Below are positions 4,499 to 32,092 of a stretch of DNA of 64,000 nt, one piece after another. The notes beneath the pieces are model-generated. The model saw only the letters and a list, made by a program, of their open reading frames with translations. It ran no database searches and had not been told where the DNA came from. The stretch lies in assembly GCA_947476325.1 (NCBI GenBank), contig CANJPZ010000002.1, positions 1 to 64,000 of the forward strand. Direction: 5' to 3'. This DNA comes from Caulobacteraceae bacterium (GTDB lineage: Bacteria > Pseudomonadota > Alphaproteobacteria > Caulobacterales > Caulobacteraceae). Both the position numbers and the translations under genes were made by a program. Positions within the stretch are counted from its first letter, which is position 1. Every line of letters begins with the position of its first letter.

Positions 4499-5362
4499 AT
4501 GACCGCATCATCGCCTGTCACCTCTGAGGACATCGAGACCTGGCGTGGCTACATTGGCCGCTGCGAGGTTCGCCGCCAGGTGCTGGACATCGAAACCTTG
4601 CGCCGGTTTGCGGTGGCGGTGGAAGCGGACCTTGATGTCGAGCAACACATGCCGCCGCTGGGTCACTGGGCTTTCTTTCTGGATGTGGTGCCAACGTGCG
4701 ACCTTGCCCCCGATGGGCACTCGCCGCGCGGGGGCAGCCTGTTTCCGCCCATTACCCTACCCCGGCGCATGTTCGCTGGCGGATCGGTTCGGTTCCTGGA
4801 GGCTCTTGCCCTGGGCCAGCCGGCCGATCTGACGATAACGGTGGCCGATGTGAAGCATCGAAGCGGCAAGACAGGTGATCTTGTTTTTGTAGAGGTCGAA
4901 CGCGTCCTGTCCCAGGCGAACAGGTCCCGCATCCAGGAGCGACAGACGATTGTGTTTCGCGAGCTAGGGGAGGCGACGCCCCCCGTTTTTCCGGCTGATC
5001 AGCCGCTGCGGGCAGGGGCGCAGCTCTGGCGGCCCCAGACGACTGATCTATTCCGGTTTTCAGCGGTGACGTTCAACACCCACCGCATTCACTACGACCT
5101 GCCTTATGCACGGGACGAAGAAGGCTATCCGGGACTGATCGTCCATGGCCCGTTCACGGCGGTCAAGCTCTGCGGCCTGGTTCAGGCGCGCGACTCCGGC
5201 GCGCCTGTGGAGCAGTTTGAGTTTCGGGCGACCGCGCCGCTGTTTTGTGGTCAGGCGGTTCAGCTGGCGCCAGGCGCCGGTCCGGGCGAGGTTGAGGCGA
5301 TGCGGTGCGATGGCGCCATCGCGATGTCGGCTAGGGCTTCGTTCCAAGGATCGCACGGATAA
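4499..5362 (+). CDS. FAS1-like dehydratase / mesaconyl-C4-CoA hydratase-type enoyl-CoA hydratase
   Basis: This 287-residue protein has a double hot-dog layout. The N-terminal half has HMPPLGHWAFFLDVVP and a PRRMFAGG segment. The C-terminal half has the motif RFSAVTFNTHRIHYDLPYA followed by GLIVHGPFTA, the R-specific hydratase/dehydratase type active-site block (Asp/His pair). Relatives include mesaconyl-C4-CoA, itaconyl-CoA and 3-methylmalyl-CoA hydratases. It sits 10 bases behind the acyl-CoA dehydrogenase, which suggests two successive steps, oxidation and then hydration, on the same branched or dicarboxylic acyl-CoA. The frame is open from 4235, but ATG 4499 is right for the family because everything before it overlaps the dehydrogenase. 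No CoA transferase or lyase gene lies next to it. Confidence 0.8.
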   Translation: MTASSPVTSEDIETWRGYIGRCEVRRQVLDIETLRRFAVAVEADLDVEQHMPPLGHWAFFLDVVPTCDLAPDGHSPRGGSLFPPITLPRRMFAGGSVRFLEALALGQPADLTITVADVKHRSGKTGDLVFVEVERVLSQANRSRIQERQTIVFRELGEATPPVFPADQPLRAGAQLWRPQTTDLFRFSAVTFNTHRIHYDLPYARDEEGYPGLIVHGPFTAVKLCGLVQARDSGAPVEQFEFRATAPLFCGQAVQLAPGAGPGEVEAMRCDGAIAMSARASFQGSHG

Positions 5363-5419
5363 GCCTATCCTGCTGCGATCGTGAAGACGGTCTCGTCTGT
5401 CATAAAGACTTAGCTCGGC

Positions 5420-5713
5420 TTGAGGGCTTCGGGATCGTCCAAAATGGGCGACTCGATGGTGAACCTGCATGGTGGCATCGGCTGGCGTCACGCGGCCGGT
5501 GATGTCACGCCGACCTCGGACCAGATTTTCCAGAGCGGAGGGCCGCTCTTCACGGTGGCGGGCGTTCCGATCGCCAAAGACACCGCAGCGCTTGAGGCTG
5601 GTCTGGACACTGCCATGGGCCAGAACGGATCCTTCAGCCTGTCCTATTCAGGCCAGATGGGGAACGGCCTGACCGACCACGGCGTCAAAGCGACCATGCG
5701 GTGGACGTTCTGA
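5420..5713 (+). pseudogene. Orphan C-terminal piece of an autotransporter beta-barrel
   Basis: About 90 residues match the end of an autotransporter outer-membrane barrel: LHGGIGWRHA...TP, then AGVPIAKDTAALEAGLD, then a two-strand end GSFSLSYSGQ and VKATMRWTF. The terminal aromatic residue is the usual BAM recognition signal. A full barrel needs about 260-300 residues, and no signal peptide, passenger or earlier strands are found upstream in any frame. The 57 bases between this and the hydratase gene hold no remnant. The frame can start at TTG 5420 or ATG 5444, but neither has a convincing ribosome-binding site. I read it as the 3' end of a deleted gene that kept its own terminator. Confidence 0.7.
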
Positions 5714-5751
5714 TCGTCATGTGCTGATCCAATCGAGAAACGCCAGCAATC

Positions 5752-5782
5752 GGGCGCTCCGGGAAACCGGAGCGCCCTTTTT
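5752..5782 (+). terminator. Intrinsic terminator after the autotransporter remnant
   Basis: GGGCGCTCCGG and CCGGAGCGCCC form an 11-base-pair perfect stem with a GAAA loop (5752-5777), followed by TTTTT (5778-5782). It ends transcription from the left and lies just before the stop of the convergent metC. It is the clearest intrinsic terminator in the window. Confidence 0.9.
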
Positions 5783-5787
5783 GTCGT

Positions 5788-6957
5788 TCAGCGGGCGGCG
5801 GCGTAGGCGGCGAGCGCCGTCGCCAGATCGGCTTTCAGGTCTTCAACGTCTTCCAGTCCGACATGAATCCGGATCATCGGGCCGGTGTAGGCGGGCGGGA
5901 ATTTCCTGACGTCGAACTGCGGATCGCAGTTGATGGCCAGGCTCTCATAGCCCCCCCATGAAAAGCCCAGGCCGAAGAGTTCGAGCGCGTCAAGCAGGGC
6001 GTGGACGGCGGCCTGGGGTCCAGGAGACAGCACAAAGCCCAAAAGGCCGTTCTGGCCCGTGAAGTCGCGTTTCCAGATGTCGTGGCCGTGTGAGTCGGGC
6101 AGGCCCGGGCAGAGTACCTGAATGACATCAGGCTGGACTTGAAGCCAGTCTGCAATGGCCAGCGCGTTCTGGCTGTGGCGGGCCAGGCGCGTCGGCAAGG
6201 TGCGCAGGCCCCGTAGCATGGTGTAGGCATCGTCCGCCGAGGTGCTCCACCCGACTTGCCAGACCGCGTCTCGCAGGGTCTGGGCGAGCGCCGCGTCTCG
6301 AGCGCAGGCCGCACCCATGAACGAATCCGAATGGCCACCAACATATTTGGTCAGAGCCTGGACGCTGATGTCCACGCCGTGAGTGATCGGCTTGTAATAG
6401 AGGCCGGCGCCCCAGGTGTTGTCGATGAGGGTCAGGATGCCGCGTGCGCGCGCCGCCGCGGCGATGGCCGGGACGTCCTGCATTTCAAAGGTCAGGGAGC
6501 CGGGCGCTTCGAGAATAATCAGGCGCGTCTCCGGCGAGGTCTTCGCCAGAACCTCGTCCGCGCCAAGGGCGGGATCGAAGTAGCGGGTGCTTATGCCGAA
6601 CCGCGACAGCACCTTGTCGCAAAAGCGACGTGTGGGGGCATAGACGCAGTCGACAGCAAGCACCTCGTCACCGGATTTGAGAACGGCCAGCAAGGCGCCG
6701 GTCATTGCGGCCAGACCACTGGGGAAAAGCTCGGCCCCTGCCGCGCCTTCGAGGTCGGCCAAGGCTGCGCACAAGGCCGCGTGGGGCTGCAGGCCGGCGC
6801 GGCCATAAGTCACCTGACCCGAGTCGTACAGCGAGGCTGCGTTCGGCAGAATCACCGTTGAACCCCGCTGGACGGGCGGGTTTACGGTCTTCCCAATGAG
6901 GCCTGCATCGGCGCCGGTGTGTATGATCCGGGTCGCATCTGATTGTTTTTTTCTCAT
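5788..6957 (-). CDS. metC: Cystathionine beta-lyase
   Basis: This 389-residue PLP enzyme of the Cys/Met metabolism family splits cystathionine to homocysteine, pyruvate and ammonia. The PLP lysine is Lys204 in QALTKYVGGHSD, and YGRAGLQPH near the N-terminus and IDNTWGAG before the lysine are family blocks. VGGHSD and the C-terminal SWGGYESL agree with beta-lyases rather than gamma-synthases. I take ATG 6957 (MRKKQSDATRIIHTG) as the start; the frame is open further upstream, but that part overlaps the divergent lipoprotein gene and carries no homology. It belongs to a sulfur neighbourhood with sseA and cysK. No SAM riboswitch is visible in the 102 bases upstream. Confidence 0.92.
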   Translation of the reverse strand: MRKKQSDATRIIHTGADAGLIGKTVNPPVQRGSTVILPNAASLYDSGQVTYGRAGLQPHAALCAALADLEGAAGAELFPSGLAAMTGALLAVLKSGDEVLAVDCVYAPTRRFCDKVLSRFGISTRYFDPALGADEVLAKTSPETRLIILEAPGSLTFEMQDVPAIAAAARARGILTLIDNTWGAGLYYKPITHGVDISVQALTKYVGGHSDSFMGAACARDAALAQTLRDAVWQVGWSTSADDAYTMLRGLRTLPTRLARHSQNALAIADWLQVQPDVIQVLCPGLPDSHGHDIWKRDFTGQNGLLGFVLSPGPQAAVHALLDALELFGLGFSWGGYESLAINCDPQFDVRKFPPAYTGPMIRIHVGLEDVEDLKADLATALAAYAAAR

Positions 6958-7059
6958 CGTCGAAATGACCCGGCTATTAAATTGCCGTATCCGGCGGTTA
7001 GGCGCGAAGCTCGGCACTGTGTTAGTGCGGCGGCTGAAGCCGTTAATCAAGGAGGACCC

Positions 7060-8178
7060 GTGCGCTTGAAGGCGGCGATTGTGTGGACGGGTCTGTTGCT
7101 GACGGTGTTCGCCGTCGCGGGCGGATGCGCGCGCAAGCCCCAGACGGTCGTGCAGGAAGCGTCTGCCTCGAAGGCGGCGCCGGAAGTGGCGGCTGCGCCG
7201 GGCGCCGCGCCGATCGACGGGCCGACCCTGAAAGCTGTGAGGGCTCGGGGCCGGATCACCTGTGGCGTCGCGGAAGTTCAACCCGGCTATGCCTCGCGCG
7301 ATGTTCTGGGTCAGTGGCATGGCTTCGACGTGGATATCTGCCGGGCCATCGCCGCGGCCGTGTTGGGTGACGCGCGGCTGGTGCGTATCGAGCCCCTGGA
7401 TGCCAAGGCGAGGTTCAACGCCTTGCAGGCTGGTCAGGTGGATCTGGTCGCCCGGGGCGGGTGGACCTATTCGCGCGACGCGGGGCTGGGTCTGAATTTT
7501 GTTGGCGTCAGCTATTATGACGCGCAAGGCTTCCTGGCTGCCAAATCCCTGAAGCTGAAGGCGCCGGCCGATCTGGCGGGCAGAAAGGTCTGTGTGCAGA
7601 CCGGAACGGCCAATGCCCAGGCTCTGTCTGAGCGTTTCGACGCCGCGCCAAAATCGGGCAAACCGACAATTTTGGTGTTCGACACCGAGGCCGAGGCGCT
7701 GGATAGCTATCGCAAAGGGGCCTGCCAGGCGCTCAGTGGTTTTGTCTCGGCGCTGGCCTCACAAAGGGCCGGGCTGCGGGATCCCGACAAGCAGGCAATC
7801 CTGACCGATCCCGCCTCGATCGAGCCAGCCGGTCCGGTGGTGCGCCAGACCGACGGTCAGTGGGCTGACATCGTCGGCTGGACGTTGAACGCCATGATCC
7901 TGGCTGAAGAGTTTGGCGTCACGTCGCGCAGTGTCGCCAGCGATCTCAGCAAGCCTGCCCGGCCGGAAATCGGGCATCTGCTGGCGGGTGACGGCTATGG
8001 GCAGATGCTGCTGTTGCACGAAGACTGGGCTTTTCAGGTCATCCGCCAGGTCGGCGCCTATGACGAGGTGTTCGCCCGAAACCTCGGGCCGGCCACGGCG
8101 CTGAAGATCGACCGGGGTCAGAATGCATTGTGGAGCGCCCAGGCTCCGGGCTTGTTGTTCGCGCCGCCCATGCGCTGA
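7060..8178 (+). CDS. Amino acid ABC transporter substrate-binding lipoprotein (AapJ/family 3 type)
   Basis: This is a 372-residue periplasmic binding protein of solute-binding family 3. GTG 7060 follows a perfect GGAGG (7051-7055). Residues 1-23 form a lipoprotein signal with AVAGGC, so Cys23 would be lipidated. The body shows the general amino acid binding pattern: RGRITCGVAEVQPGYA, WHGFDVDICRAIAAAV, then ADLAGRKVCVQTGTAN and a GACQALSGF hinge region. No permease or ATPase gene is nearby, so it either serves a distant AapQMP-like complex or acts in sensing. The surrounding metC, sseA and cysK genes make a sulfur amino acid a fair guess for the ligand, but this is inference. The lipid anchor is unusual for Gram-negative members. 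Confidence 0.85.
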   Translation: MRLKAAIVWTGLLLTVFAVAGGCARKPQTVVQEASASKAAPEVAAAPGAAPIDGPTLKAVRARGRITCGVAEVQPGYASRDVLGQWHGFDVDICRAIAAAVLGDARLVRIEPLDAKARFNALQAGQVDLVARGGWTYSRDAGLGLNFVGVSYYDAQGFLAAKSLKLKAPADLAGRKVCVQTGTANAQALSERFDAAPKSGKPTILVFDTEAEALDSYRKGACQALSGFVSALASQRAGLRDPDKQAILTDPASIEPAGPVVRQTDGQWADIVGWTLNAMILAEEFGVTSRSVASDLSKPARPEIGHLLAGDGYGQMLLLHEDWAFQVIRQVGAYDEVFARNLGPATALKIDRGQNALWSAQAPGLLFAPPMR

Positions 8179-28449: not shown

Positions 28450-29679
28450 TTAGTCCCTGCGAAGGGCTTCGATGGGGTCGAGCTGGGCGGCGCGGTACGA
28501 GGGGTAGGCGCCGAACACCAGGCCGACGAACATCGAGAATCCGAGCGACAGCGGCGCCGCCCAGGACGGAATCTGGGTGGGCCATCCGCCCACCTGACCG
28601 ACAATGAAGGCCGCGATAACGCCAAGCGCCAGGCCGATCAGTCCGCCGATCAGCGACAGGGTCACAGCCTCCAGCGCGAACTGGGACAGGATGTCTCCAC
28701 GCGTGGCGCCCAGCGCCATCCGCAGGCCGATCTCCCGCGTTCGCTCGGTCACGGCGACCAGCATTATGTTCATGATGCCGACGCCGCCGACCACCAGCGA
28801 CACGCCGGCGACGGCGGCCAGCAGGATGGTGAAGGTCTTGGTGCTCTGCTGACTGGCCTGGGCCACCGAGGTGAGGTTCTGGATCTGGAAATTGGCGTCG
28901 GCGCCGGGCTGGATCTTGTGGCGTTCGCGCAGCAGGGCGTCGATGTCGGTCTGGACCTTGTCGAGGGTCTGTTCGGAGTCGGCCTTGACGAAGATGTTCT
29001 GGACCGCCTCACCGCGCACGCGGCGGCCGACCACGCGGCTGCGGACCGAGACGAGGGGGCCGATCGCCAGGTCGTCCTGGTCCTGACCGCTGCTGCTCTG
29101 GCCGCGGGATTTCAGCACGCCGATGACCTCGAAGGGCACGGTGCCGACGCGGATGCGCTGGCCCAGGGGGTCATTGTCCTGGAAAAGGTTGGTGGCGACG
29201 GTCTGGCCGATGACCAGGACCTTCTTGCTGAGCTCACCTTCCTCGAACATGCGGCCGCTGGCGATCTTGAGGTCGCGGACGGTCAGGTAGGTGGCGTCAA
29301 CGCCATAGACCGTGGAGTTCCAGTTGGTGCCTTCGCCGATCAGCTGGGTGCGGGTCTGCACCGCCGATGAGACGGCGGCAATGTGCTGAACATTGTCGCG
29401 GATCGCCTGGGCGTCCTTGGTGTCGATGGAAATGGCCGAGCCGCCGCCCTGGTTGACGATCGAGCCTGCCCCGCGGGCCGAGGCCGACTGGATGATCAGC
29501 ATGTTCGAGCCGAGGGCGGAGATCTGTTCCTTGATGTTGGCCGAGGCGCCCAGGCCGATCGAGGTCATGCAGATGACGGCGCCAACGCCGATAACGATGC
29601 CGAGCGTGGTCAGGGCGCTGCGCATGGGGTGGGCGAAGATCGCGCCGGCGGCGAAACGGACCAGTTCAATGCGTTTCAT
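28450..29679 (-). CDS. ABC transporter permease, MacB type
   Basis: This 409-residue permease has one N-terminal helix (RSALTTLGIVIGVGAVI), a large periplasmic MacB core domain, and three C-terminal helices with IMNIMLVAVTERTREIGLRMALGA, the FtsX-domain signature. Unlike E. coli MacB, the ATPase is a separate gene, so this is the split form. It works with the ATPase and the membrane-fusion protein upstream to move substrates from the periplasm to an outer-membrane TolC-like channel; none is encoded nearby. ATG 29679 lies inside the ATPase gene, with a 14-base overlap. Confidence 0.92.
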   Translation of the reverse strand: MKRIELVRFAAGAIFAHPMRSALTTLGIVIGVGAVICMTSIGLGASANIKEQISALGSNMLIIQSASARGAGSIVNQGGGSAISIDTKDAQAIRDNVQHIAAVSSAVQTRTQLIGEGTNWNSTVYGVDATYLTVRDLKIASGRMFEEGELSKKVLVIGQTVATNLFQDNDPLGQRIRVGTVPFEVIGVLKSRGQSSSGQDQDDLAIGPLVSVRSRVVGRRVRGEAVQNIFVKADSEQTLDKVQTDIDALLRERHKIQPGADANFQIQNLTSVAQASQQSTKTFTILLAAVAGVSLVVGGVGIMNIMLVAVTERTREIGLRMALGATRGDILSQFALEAVTLSLIGGLIGLALGVIAAFIVGQVGGWPTQIPSWAAPLSLGFSMFVGLVFGAYPSYRAAQLDPIEALRRD

Positions 29680-30388
29680 AGTTGGCTCCCAGCATGTGGG
29701 CTTCAACGACGCCGGATTCGTCGCTGATAATAAATCCGTCCCTGAAGGTCACGCGGCGCTTGGCCTTGGCGGCGACGCCGAGGTCGTGGGTGACGATGAC
29801 CAGGGTCAGGCCATCGTCGTTCAGATCCTGGAACAGCTGGAGGACTTCCTTGCCGGTCTTGGAATCGAGGGCGCCCGTGGGCTCGTCGGCGAGCAGCAGG
29901 TCGGGGCGGCCGGCCAGGGCGCGGGCGATGGCGACGCGTTGCTGCTGTCCGCCGGACATCTGGGCGGGCCGGTGGCCGGCGCGCTCGCCCAGGCCGACCC
30001 GTGTGAGCAGCTCAAGGGCGCGTTCCTTGCGCTCGGCGGGGGGAACGTCGGCATAGACCATGGGCAGTTCGACGTTCTGGGCGGCGGTCAGGCGCGGCAG
30101 CAGCTGGAACGACTGGAAGATGAAGCCGATCCGCTTGTTGCGGAAGTGGGCCAGCTCGGCGTCGTCAAAGGTGGCGATGTCGTCGCCTTCGAACAGGTAC
30201 TGGCCCTCGGTCGGCCGGTCGAGGCCGCCGACGATGTTCATTAGCGAAGACTTGCCCGAGCCGGACGGGCCGATAATGGCGGTGAATTCGCCACGCTCAA
30301 TCTTGAGGTCGATGCCCGCCAGCGCGGCGACCATCTCATCCCCCATGATGTAGATCTTCTTGAGACCCCTAAGTTCGATCATCGACAC
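29666..30388 (-). CDS. ABC transporter ATP-binding protein, MacB/LolD type
   Basis: This 240-residue nucleotide-binding subunit has Walker A GPSGSGKSS (residues about 40-48), a Q-loop in FQSFQLLPRLTA, signature MSGGQQQRVAIARAL, Walker B LLLADEPTGALD and an H-loop in VIVTHD. The sequence type is that of MacB/LolD ATPases, which power mechanotransmission rather than classical import. It starts 12 bases after the adaptor gene's stop and overlaps the permease. No membrane domain is fused. Confidence 0.94.
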   Translation of the reverse strand: MSMIELRGLKKIYIMGDEMVAALAGIDLKIERGEFTAIIGPSGSGKSSLMNIVGGLDRPTEGQYLFEGDDIATFDDAELAHFRNKRIGFIFQSFQLLPRLTAAQNVELPMVYADVPPAERKERALELLTRVGLGERAGHRPAQMSGGQQQRVAIARALAGRPDLLLADEPTGALDSKTGKEVLQLFQDLNDDGLTLVIVTHDLGVAAKAKRRVTFRDGFIISDESGVVEAHMLGANYETH

Positions 30389-30400
30389 CGGGACTGGACC

Positions 30401-32092
30401 TTACGTCTTGGGTTGAGGGCCGCCGCCGGTGATGACGAGATCACCCTGCTTGAACGCCGTCGAGAACGCCTGGGTCACCGAGCCATCGGTGACGCCAATG
30501 CCGATGCCGATGCGGTAGGGCTTGCCGTCGCGCAGGACGTAGACCTGCCCGCGCTGGATGGTGCTGGGGTTGGCGCGGAGTTGATCGAGCTGCGCCTTCT
30601 GGGCGGGAGAGAGCAGGGCTTCGGCCGCGGTTCGCGCCTTGGTGGTGGCGTCCTGCATCTGCTTCTGGAACGGCGCGCGGTCAACGCCGGCATTGCGCGA
30701 CACGGCCTTGAGCTGCCGGGCCTGGATGGCTGACGTTTCATGCCGCTGGTCTTCAAAGACCTTTTCGATCTTTTCCATGACATCGACCGGCAGGTTCAGC
30801 TGGTCATAGGCGAAGATCGGGTTGCGGTTGCCGCCGCCACGTCCGCCGCGTCCTGCGCCGCCGGCGCCCGGGAATCCGCCGCCGCCGCCGCCGCCGAAGC
30901 CGCCAGGGCCACCCCGGCCGCCGCCGCCAAATCCGCCGCCGCCGCCGAAGCCGCCCGGAGGTCCGCCACGGCCGCCTGCGCCGCCGATACCCGGTACGCC
31001 GCCAGGGGCGCCGCCGATGCCCGGCACGCCGCCACGGCCAGCGGCTGGCGGCGCGTTCGGATCGATCGGCGCCCAGCGCAGCGCGCCGTTCGGAATACGA
31101 ATGACGTTGGTGTGACGCTCGAGGGTGATTTCAGCGTTGGCGGTCATCCCCGGGAGCAGTTTCAGGTCCGGGTTTTGCGCGCTGGCCATGACCACATAGG
31201 CCACGACGTTGGACGAGGTTTCAGGCGCCTTGCGGACCTGGGTGATCTGGGCGGTGAAATTGTCGTTCGGATAGGCGTCGACCGTGAAGCCGACGTCCTG
31301 GCCGATGCGCACCTGGCCGATGTCGGCTTCGTCGACGAGGATCTTGAGCTGCAGGACGGTGAGGTCCTGGGCGATGGTGAACAATACGGGCGCGTTCAGC
31401 GACGCAGCCACGGTCGATCCCACGTCGACCTTGCGGTTCACGACGACGCCATTGATCGGCGACTTGATGATGGTGCGGTCGAGGTCGGTATTGGCCTGCT
31501 CGACGCTGGCGTTGGACTGCTTCTGGCGCAGCTGTGAGGTCTTGACCGAGTTCTGGGACACCTTGACCGACGCCTGCGAACTGGCCAGTTGCGCCTCGGC
31601 TTTTTCCAGGGCGCTCTTCGATACGATTCCCTGATCGAACAGGGATTTGGTGCGATTGTAGTCGGCCTGGGTGACCTGGGCGTTGGCGATCGTCTGGGCC
31701 AGGTTGGCCTCGGCGGTGCTCACGGCCTGGGCGGCCGAATCGAGGTCAGCCTGGGCCGATTGAAGTTTCGAGGTCTGGGTGACGGGATCGATGATCGCCA
31801 GAACCTGGCCAGCCGAGACCGGCGAATCGAAATCCACCCGGACTTCCTTGAGCTGACCTGAAGTCTGCGAGCCCACATCCACGGTCACCAGCGCCTGCAT
31901 GGTGCCGGACGCAGAAACCGATCGCGTCACATTGCCCACCGAGACCGGCGTTGTTGTGTAAGGCGAGGCTTCCGCCTTGGGTTTCAAGAAGAACCAGCCG
32001 CCGACTGCGGCGACCACGATCATCGCACCGAACATGATGACGGGCGGTGAAATCCGGAAACGTTTGCGGGCAGGAGCGGTCTTTGTCGACAT
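30401..32092 (-). CDS. Membrane-fusion (periplasmic adaptor) protein, MacA-like, with glycine-rich insert
   Basis: This 563-residue adaptor has an N-terminal anchor helix (about 18-38), a biotinyl-lipoyl fold (SVSASGTMQALVTVDVGSQT), a long helical hairpin (about 95-200, Q/A/S-rich), and beta-barrel blocks (KILVDEADIGQVRIGQDVGF, PGMTANAEITLERHTNV). E. coli MacA is about 370 residues. Here, after GALRWAP, residues about 350-420 are almost only Gly, Pro, Arg, Ala and Phe (PGIGG, GGFGGGG repeats). A helical segment (MEKIEKVFEDQRHE) and the final RGQVYVLRDGKPYRI strand follow. It is first in a three-gene operon with the ATPase and permease. I use ATG 32092. Confidence 0.9.
   Translation of the reverse strand: MSTKTAPARKRFRISPPVIMFGAMIVVAAVGGWFFLKPKAEASPYTTTPVSVGNVTRSVSASGTMQALVTVDVGSQTSGQLKEVRVDFDSPVSAGQVLAIIDPVTQTSKLQSAQADLDSAAQAVSTAEANLAQTIANAQVTQADYNRTKSLFDQGIVSKSALEKAEAQLASSQASVKVSQNSVKTSQLRQKQSNASVEQANTDLDRTIIKSPINGVVVNRKVDVGSTVAASLNAPVLFTIAQDLTVLQLKILVDEADIGQVRIGQDVGFTVDAYPNDNFTAQITQVRKAPETSSNVVAYVVMASAQNPDLKLLPGMTANAEITLERHTNVIRIPNGALRWAPIDPNAPPAAGRGGVPGIGGAPGGVPGIGGAGGRGGPPGGFGGGGGFGGGGRGGPGGFGGGGGGGFPGAGGAGRGGRGGGNRNPIFAYDQLNLPVDVMEKIEKVFEDQRHETSAIQARQLKAVSRNAGVDRAPFQKQMQDATTKARTAAEALLSPAQKAQLDQLRANPSTIQRGQVYVLRDGKPYRIGIGIGVTDGSVTQAFSTAFKQGDLVITGGGPQPKT

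Follow-up and report, generated by a model that had tools for sequence, protein, structure and literature searches.

Among the described systems nearest to the one considered here is MacAB-TolC, in which the membrane-proximal domains of the adaptor MacA are described as contacting the periplasmic domain of MacB, the interface between the two being the presumed entry point of cargo (PMC5985334). The membrane-proximal domain of adaptors has been proposed to help in cargo selection, and for MacA a link between this domain and the binding of LPS has been drawn (PMC4446572). The same source describes SilB, an adaptor with a C-terminal CusF-like metallochaperone domain, CusF itself being the stand-alone protein of a related pump. 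In type I secretion, a domain borne by the transporter, the CLD of HlyB, is reported to tether and chaperone unfolded cargo (PMC8277102). Spy, finally, is presented as a chaperone that forms a cradle-shaped dimer, positive on its concave face (PMC8144458; PMC3910116), the dimer being stable and antiparallel (PMC8144458).

In this paper, we are concerned with a single gene in which several of these themes meet. The window (the whole stretch of 64,000 nucleotides of Caulobacteraceae DNA that was analysed) encodes a MacA-like adaptor, and inside the membrane-proximal domain of that adaptor lies an insertion composed of a glycine-rich tract and, behind it, a folded helical domain assigned to the Spy/CpxP fold. 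A sequence-only reading of this DNA had noticed the tract; what it missed is the domain, and the domain is what recurs. Its presence, fold, place in the chain and recurrence are established by computation.

The precedents help only so far. As in SilB/CusF, a periplasmic chaperone domain is fused to an adaptor and a stand-alone version is known, but SilB serves an RND metal pump and has a terminal extension that is a metal-binding beta-barrel, whereas here the pump is of the ABC type, the insertion is internal, the fold is helical and metal ligands are few. With the CLD of HlyB, the likeness would be that of a cargo-tethering chaperone domain carried by export machinery; the CLD sits on the ABC transporter and the domain described here sits on the adaptor. 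The CLD is, besides, cytoplasmic and unrelated in fold.

The fusion of a chaperone domain to an adaptor is thus known from SilB/CusF, and a Spy/CpxP-fold domain in a MacA-type adaptor is apparently a recurrent, undescribed combination of known parts. In the CC-licensed literature of PMC (subscription papers and preprints lie outside this scope), we found no description of such a domain inside a MacA-type adaptor and no paper that brings “LTXXQ” together with “HlyD”; a 2026 review of adaptors (PMC13328181) makes no mention of Spy, CpxP, LTXXQ, chaperone, insertion or glycine-rich.

A MacA-like adaptor and a split pump

The sequence-only reading had placed the tract inside a MacA-like adaptor, and there we agree. 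The open reading frame (Table 1) matches Pfam HlyD_D23 (2.1e-15), scores 115.3 bits against TIGR01730 (cut-off 94.9) and finds its best structural match in the MacA of MacAB-TolC (9qgy_G; Z 22.5, 328 residues aligned, rmsd 6.9), MacA entries filling rows 1–4 and 6 of the structure comparison (Z 18.2–22.5; 5nik_D at Z 18.2). Against the MacA equivalog of NCBIfam, PRK11578, it reaches 155.6 bits, under the cut-off of 342, and by that score, it is MacA-like, not MacA proper. In the full-length AlphaFold2 model (mean pLDDT 85.4, pTM 0.64), the secondary structure runs through anchor helix, hairpin, lipoyl, barrel and membrane-proximal domains in the order of MacA, and the N-terminal helix is probably transmembrane.

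Table 1. Coordinates in the window of the adaptor, its parts and its partner genes
Feature	Position	Strand	Basis
MacA-like periplasmic adaptor, 563 aa	30401..32092, stop included; ATG at 32092	(-)	ORF
N-terminal helix, aa 16-35	31988..32047	(-)	AlphaFold2 secondary structure
Alpha-hairpin, aa 104-205	31478..31783	(-)	AlphaFold2 model
Hairpin-tip RxxxLxxxxxxS (TolC-binding RLS motif), aa 147-158, RTKSLFDQGIVS	31619..31654	(-)	Sequence
Strand before the insertion, leading into the membrane-proximal domain, aa 317-334	31091..31144	(-)	AlphaFold2 model; profile alignment to E. coli MacA up to L314
Gly-rich disordered tether, aa 351-421	30830..31042	(-)	pLDDT<50 in AlphaFold2; 45/69 Gly
Predicted inserted Spy/CpxP-like four-helix domain, aa 426-507	30572..30817	(-)	Profile, Pfam and model evidence
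First LTXXQ position, degenerate (LPVDV), aa 434-438	30779..30793	(-)	Alignment
Second LTXXQ-type motif (LSPAQ), aa 494-498	30599..30613	(-)	Alignment
Membrane-proximal strands after the insertion, aa 513-543	30464..30556	(-)	AlphaFold2 model; weak profile alignment (4.8 bits) to E. coli MacA N321 onwards
Separate ABC ATPase, MacB-type	29666..30388	(-)	ABC_tran 2.4e-36; MacB model 1.5e-80 over its positions 6-232
Separate MacB-type permease	28450..29679	(-)	MacB_PCD 5.4e-46; FtsX 3.1e-20

With MacA of MacAB-TolC, then, the protein shares the core fold, the N-terminal helix, the alpha-hairpin with its RLS motif and the MacB-type partner genes, but here the ATPase and the permease are separate genes. 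The TolC-binding RLS motif of the hairpin tip has been described (PMC3391258), and a loose form of it, R...L......[STA], stands at the tip in 79 of the 80 relatives that we compared, with S in 49 of them. Wherever at least 2.2 kb of downstream sequence could be searched with tblastn, the adaptor was followed by ATPase and permease genes, both at insert-bearing (55 of 55) and at insert-less loci (17 of 17). A channel gene is a rarer neighbor: TolC-family queries from the window's own genome found one close by at 6 of the 55 insert-bearing loci and at none of the 17 insert-less ones, and the channel of one Rokubacteria locus (L088) used as a query added L077, L081, L092 and L093, besides L088 itself. 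The window's genome has TolC-family genes on other contigs and the adaptor keeps its RLS motif, so the TolC-type channel is likely to be supplied in trans, by a gene at another place in the genome.

Three adaptor-like paralogues of the same genome (L002, L004 and L005), whose ends were inspected, have no such insert. A further open frame of 573 aa (L007; own genome G000:C5 around 93710) matches the adaptor weakly (E 2.8e-6) and has a long Gly/Arg/Ala-rich tail at its end. Among plasmids, 1056 records match the adaptor, and none covers 80% or more of it in one place.

The glycine-rich tract

The tract itself, put at about 70 residues and at 30830-31035 by the sequence-only reading, is real. That interval corresponds to aa ~353-421, in agreement with the disordered part of the AlphaFold2 model (aa 351-421), and 45 of its 69 residues are glycine; the next-best window of 69 residues among the 260 stop-to-stop ORFs of at least 100 aa in the window has 22. 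The earlier statement that ordinary MacA has nothing similar agrees with E. coli MacA: the profile alignment places the whole insertion, ~172 residues of which the tract is the first ~45%, between residues 314 and 321 of E. coli MacA, which has a loop of about 6 residues there (the part after the insertion aligns weakly, at 4.8 bits). We part company over the location. The tract had been said to interrupt the barrel, and it sits instead in a loop of the membrane-proximal domain, between the strand that enters that domain and the next strands of the same domain (E. coli MacA L314/N321).

Could the tract be nothing more than an error of assembly or a frameshift in slippage-prone sequence? There are imperfect GC-rich repeats in it, and Tandem Repeats Finder (TRF) reports imperfect repeats of 30 bp (30978-31034) and 18 bp (30881-30955). 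Yet the sequence behind the tract stays in frame when aligned with orthologues, the closest of them (L009; 62–63% identity overall) included, and this nearest relative has a long Gly-rich tract of its own. Because homology in other genomes is in frame on both sides of the linker, a frameshift is rejected, an assembly error is very unlikely, and we give an artefact next to no weight.

What the tract is made of varies. In 59 insert-bearing proteins, the linker has a median of 26 residues and runs from 6 to 75, apart from one Polaromonas adaptor (L117), whose figure of 205 includes the first of its domain copies, and its glycine content from 0 to 57% (median 23%); the linker in the window is second in both length and glycine content. 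Many relatives have linkers that are Ala/Pro/Ser-rich or charged, and Gly repeats as such are not conserved. In 15 pairwise comparisons, with dS near saturation in several, linker dN exceeds core dN in 14 (the exception being the window and L050) and domain dN in 12. Since the linker is faster and varies in length and composition across relatives, the Gly tract is a local and extreme form of a generic tether.

The sequence-only reading had offered two functions for the tract, a flexible spacer or a surface that binds substrate or peptidoglycan. The first survives, for the tract is predicted to be disordered, varies among relatives and is faster than the core in 14 of the 15 pairs. Binding by the Gly repeats is unsupported, the linkers of relatives being often not Gly-rich. 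Several orthologues (L009, L022, L031 and L038 among them) continue beyond the membrane-proximal domain into a second Gly-rich tail at the C terminus, which the window protein does not have.

The domain behind the tract

If the tract is a tether, what is tethered? About 85 residues behind it are confidently helical in the full-length model (aa 426-430, 436-466, 473-492 and 496-507). Modelled alone, the insert (pLDDT 88.2, pTM 0.74) folds into four helices, at residues 12-16 (short), 22-52 (long), 59-78 and 82-93. A profile of 46 such inserts finds, as its best PDB sequences, E. coli Spy (1.3e-8), CpxP (0.002) and Salmonella STV (VirG-like; 0.019), and 37 of the 46 members match Pfam LTXXQ (PF07813) at E<=0.01, the best at 2.1e-9, with 5 matching Metal_resist.

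The window's own copy is a less forthcoming member of the family. It scores 18.3 bits against LTXXQ, under the gathering cut-off of 24.3, with sub-threshold E values of 0.047 (whole protein), 0.0046 (fragment) and 0.0039 (domain), and whole-protein scans of 10 orthologues list LTXXQ at E<=1 for 5 of them and above the cut-off for none. At the first LTXXQ position, where the majority of the alignment keeps L and Q, the window has LPVDV; the Gln of the second motif (Q498) is invariant in all 46 members, and in the alignment two Leu are nearly so.

Structure comparison points in the same direction. Foldseek with the insert model ranks STV, CpxP, Spy and CnrX first, with probabilities up to 1.00 and no match at E<=0.001 (best E 0.037). 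In VIA, rows 1–22 are all STV, Spy, CnrX, CpxP or NccX (Z 7.2–9.0 over 70–93 residues); row 23, an unrelated phage protein at Z 7.2, ties with rows 21–22, and VIA itself notes that Z 7–9 can be generic for helical bundles. Because profile and fold matches agree, we assign the predicted domain to the Spy/CpxP/CnrX (LTXXQ) superfamily. It shares with Spy/CpxP (PF07813) and with the CnrX-type Metal_resist family (PF13801) the four-helix topology, the LTXXQ-type motifs of the family alignment and the best profile and fold matches; it differs from them in being embedded in another protein, with a degenerate first motif and a score under the Pfam cut-off.

Judged by substitution rates, the helical domain is under purifying selection: its dN/dS is below 1 in all 15 pairs (0.08–0.69). 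It is faster than the linker in 3 pairs, including window–L050, where its dN is 0.70 against 0.26 for the linker and its dN/dS is 0.69. The domain carries a net positive charge in 50 of the 59 insert-bearing proteins; none of the 59 has a Cys in it, 46 have no His and 2 have at least two His. Such a composition fits the positive concave face of Spy better than it fits a His/Cys metal site, and it sets the inserted domains apart from metal sensors of the CnrX/ZraP type. We, therefore, regard metal sensing through His or Cys as disfavored; Met or carboxylate ligands are possible.

One might still hold that the insertion is a low-complexity spacer and that its helices are incidental, as the disordered, Gly-rich tract and a few relatives (L049 and L162) with a Gly-rich loop and no detected domain would allow. 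The helical part, though, has a recognizable fold and family, is under purifying selection and has relatives that exist as separate genes; a spacer alone, contradicted by the domain homology, is rejected as a full account, and we think it highly improbable.

Distribution and history of the insert

Is the insert a private invention of this organism? It is not, for it recurs in other genomes. Within the family, at least 28 of 149 genomes, counting that of the window, match the adaptor at E<=4e-78 (with up to 9 candidates scored per genome), and linker and helical domain are present in 27 of the 29 family proteins extracted from 30 loci (L048 was left out), L043 and L049 lacking them. Further afield, we took the best 80 of at least 569 relatives, one genome per species, as found by tblastn with the insert-bearing protein; 58 have the domain, 20 do not and 2 are incomplete (L101 through a frameshift, L127 because its contig stops there), proportions that overstate the prevalence, since the set is biased to close relatives. 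It also partly overlaps the family loci; L050 and L009, for instance, are probably the same genome. In these 80, the length of the chain after the anchor is bimodal, 80–103 residues in 20 and 145–397 in 58, and an HMM of the insert matches all 58 long proteins and no short one, a partly circular test in that 45 of its 46 sequences come from the long group. In L101, a Caulobacteraceae MAG, the frameshift falls before the insertion, and another frame still encodes the inserted domain.

The best 80 include Caulobacterales, Maricaulis, Kordiimonas, Robiginitomaculum, Burkholderiales, Paraglaciecola, Rokubacteria, a Thermodesulfobacteriota MAG and others, and the insert itself is found in Alpha-, Beta- and Gammaproteobacteria, Rokubacteria and others. 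An insert-free query run on 115 genomes of the class matched in 23 genomes, the window's own included, and of the 23 loci that lie in genomes other than the window's, 8 have the domain at E<=0.001. On an adaptor tree built without the insert (79 proteins, L101 and L127 left out), the state of the insert changes 9 times, against a mean of 18 when shuffled, and at least 7 changes are forced by starred branches; it is a quick tree with 30 open forks, on which gain and loss are not separable. A simple single origin is rejected by those 9 changes, and the tree, therefore, indicates that gain, loss or exchange of the insert has recurred.

Some copies have had adventures of their own. L117 (Polaromonas MAG, 4989-7145) has two tandem copies of the domain (75.6 and 84.9 bits). 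In L022 / L066, an adaptor of 736 aa, the inserted domain is itself interrupted by ~150 Gly/Gln/Pro-rich residues, with one motif in each half. L162, a relative at the level of the class, has a very long Gly/Ala/Pro linker and a single LTPEQ motif, perhaps what is left of a decayed domain.

What the domain might do

The reading that we favor, and would call about an even bet, is that the domain is a tethered periplasmic holdase that concentrates polypeptide cargo at the entrance of a split MacAB-TolC-type pump. The Gly tract would be a long N-terminal tether that hangs the Spy/CpxP-fold domain from the membrane-proximal part of the adaptor and lets it swing, leaving the beta fold undisturbed. 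If the adaptor is hexameric, like MacA, six tethered copies would ring the adaptor–transporter junction, where periplasmic cargo would enter. These domains, which may pair as Spy does, could act as a built-in, ATP-independent holdase, catching unfolded or amphipathic periplasmic polypeptides and thereby enriching them where the pump takes up its cargo, in the way that the CusF-like domain of SilB does for metal. We prefer this reading to a sensor, which we rank second, and to a structural clasp, which we rank third, because most inserts carry a net positive charge, none contains Cys and most are free of His, and because of what has been described of MacA/MacB and of Spy. The low score and degenerate first motif of the window's copy weigh against it, as do the relatives without the domain. 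The cargo may be something other than polypeptide, given the link drawn between the membrane-proximal domain of MacA and LPS.

The sensor would have the domain, like CpxP or CnrX, perceive envelope stress, misfolded protein or a ligand and gate the assembly or activity of the pump, with no handling of cargo. What makes one take it seriously is a clade of Rokubacteria. Two of its adaptors (L077 and L081) carry the insert and have the channel gene directly upstream, and two others (L088 and L092) are without it. In these latter operons (L088:1831-8347 and L092:721-5994), the genes run ECF sigma, probable anti-sigma, Metal_resist/LTXXQ protein, TolC-type channel, adaptor and ATPase, with the permease in L088; the anti-sigma was assigned by eye (it has no Pfam match), as was the secreted look of the stand-alone protein. 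The stand-alone proteins match Metal_resist (CnrX-type; 1.3e-10 and 5.9e-13) more strongly than LTXXQ (3.1e-5 and 0.0036). Here the stand-alone relative is encoded between a sigma/probable anti-sigma pair and the genes of the pump, an order that recalls cnrYXH, and CnrX and NccX are among the fold matches of the insert; the stronger Metal_resist match and the neighboring ECF sigma gene fit a sensor as well as they fit a chaperone. On the other hand, when the Rokubacteria sigma and anti-sigma were used as queries at the 80 loci (tblastn, E<=1e-4), a single ECF, in L120, was found beside insert-bearing adaptors, and the His and Cys ligands are mostly missing from the inserts. We consider a sensor unlikely, while keeping it at the head of the alternatives.

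Whatever the domain does, stand-alone relatives in the pump operons of 2 of the 20 insert-less relatives suggest, on gene content, that the same kind of module can serve a pump either in cis or in trans. They also bear on the clasp, in which antiparallel Spy-like dimers between neighboring protomers would stabilize the ring of adaptors or the way it holds the permease, with no binding of clients. The Spy dimer is its precedent (PMC8144458), the insertion lies within the domain that is described as docking on MacB (PMC5985334) and L117 has its two tandem copies. A rigid clasp is, nevertheless, ill served by long, variable and probably disordered tethers (disorder was predicted for the window alone), by stand-alone versions in two operons and by 20 of 80 relatives that do without it; we doubt it somewhat more than we doubt the sensor.

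One might go further and imagine a class of MacAB-type pumps whose ring of tethered Spy-like chaperones exports unfolded periplasmic polypeptides through TolC-type channels, a quality control of the envelope that works by export instead of refolding or proteolysis and whose chaperone can be switched between cis and trans. This larger picture is speculative, and we consider it unlikely.

To our knowledge, little is known of how MacAB-type pumps recruit periplasmic polypeptide cargo, and a chaperone-fold domain at the adaptor–transporter junction, swapped for a stand-alone gene in two operons and duplicated in one adaptor, offers a testable handle on the problem. The recurrent design hints at pumps with a built-in module for catching cargo or for sensing, and tether and domain together would readily explain some of the Gly-rich or overlong adaptors in annotations.

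The window's own genome also encodes a stand-alone LTXXQ protein of 184 aa (L130:1360-1914, minus strand; G000:C1 around 204698; PF07813 5.2e-9) with Gly/Arg-rich flanks of similar composition, which is possibly related in origin to the domain of the adaptor.
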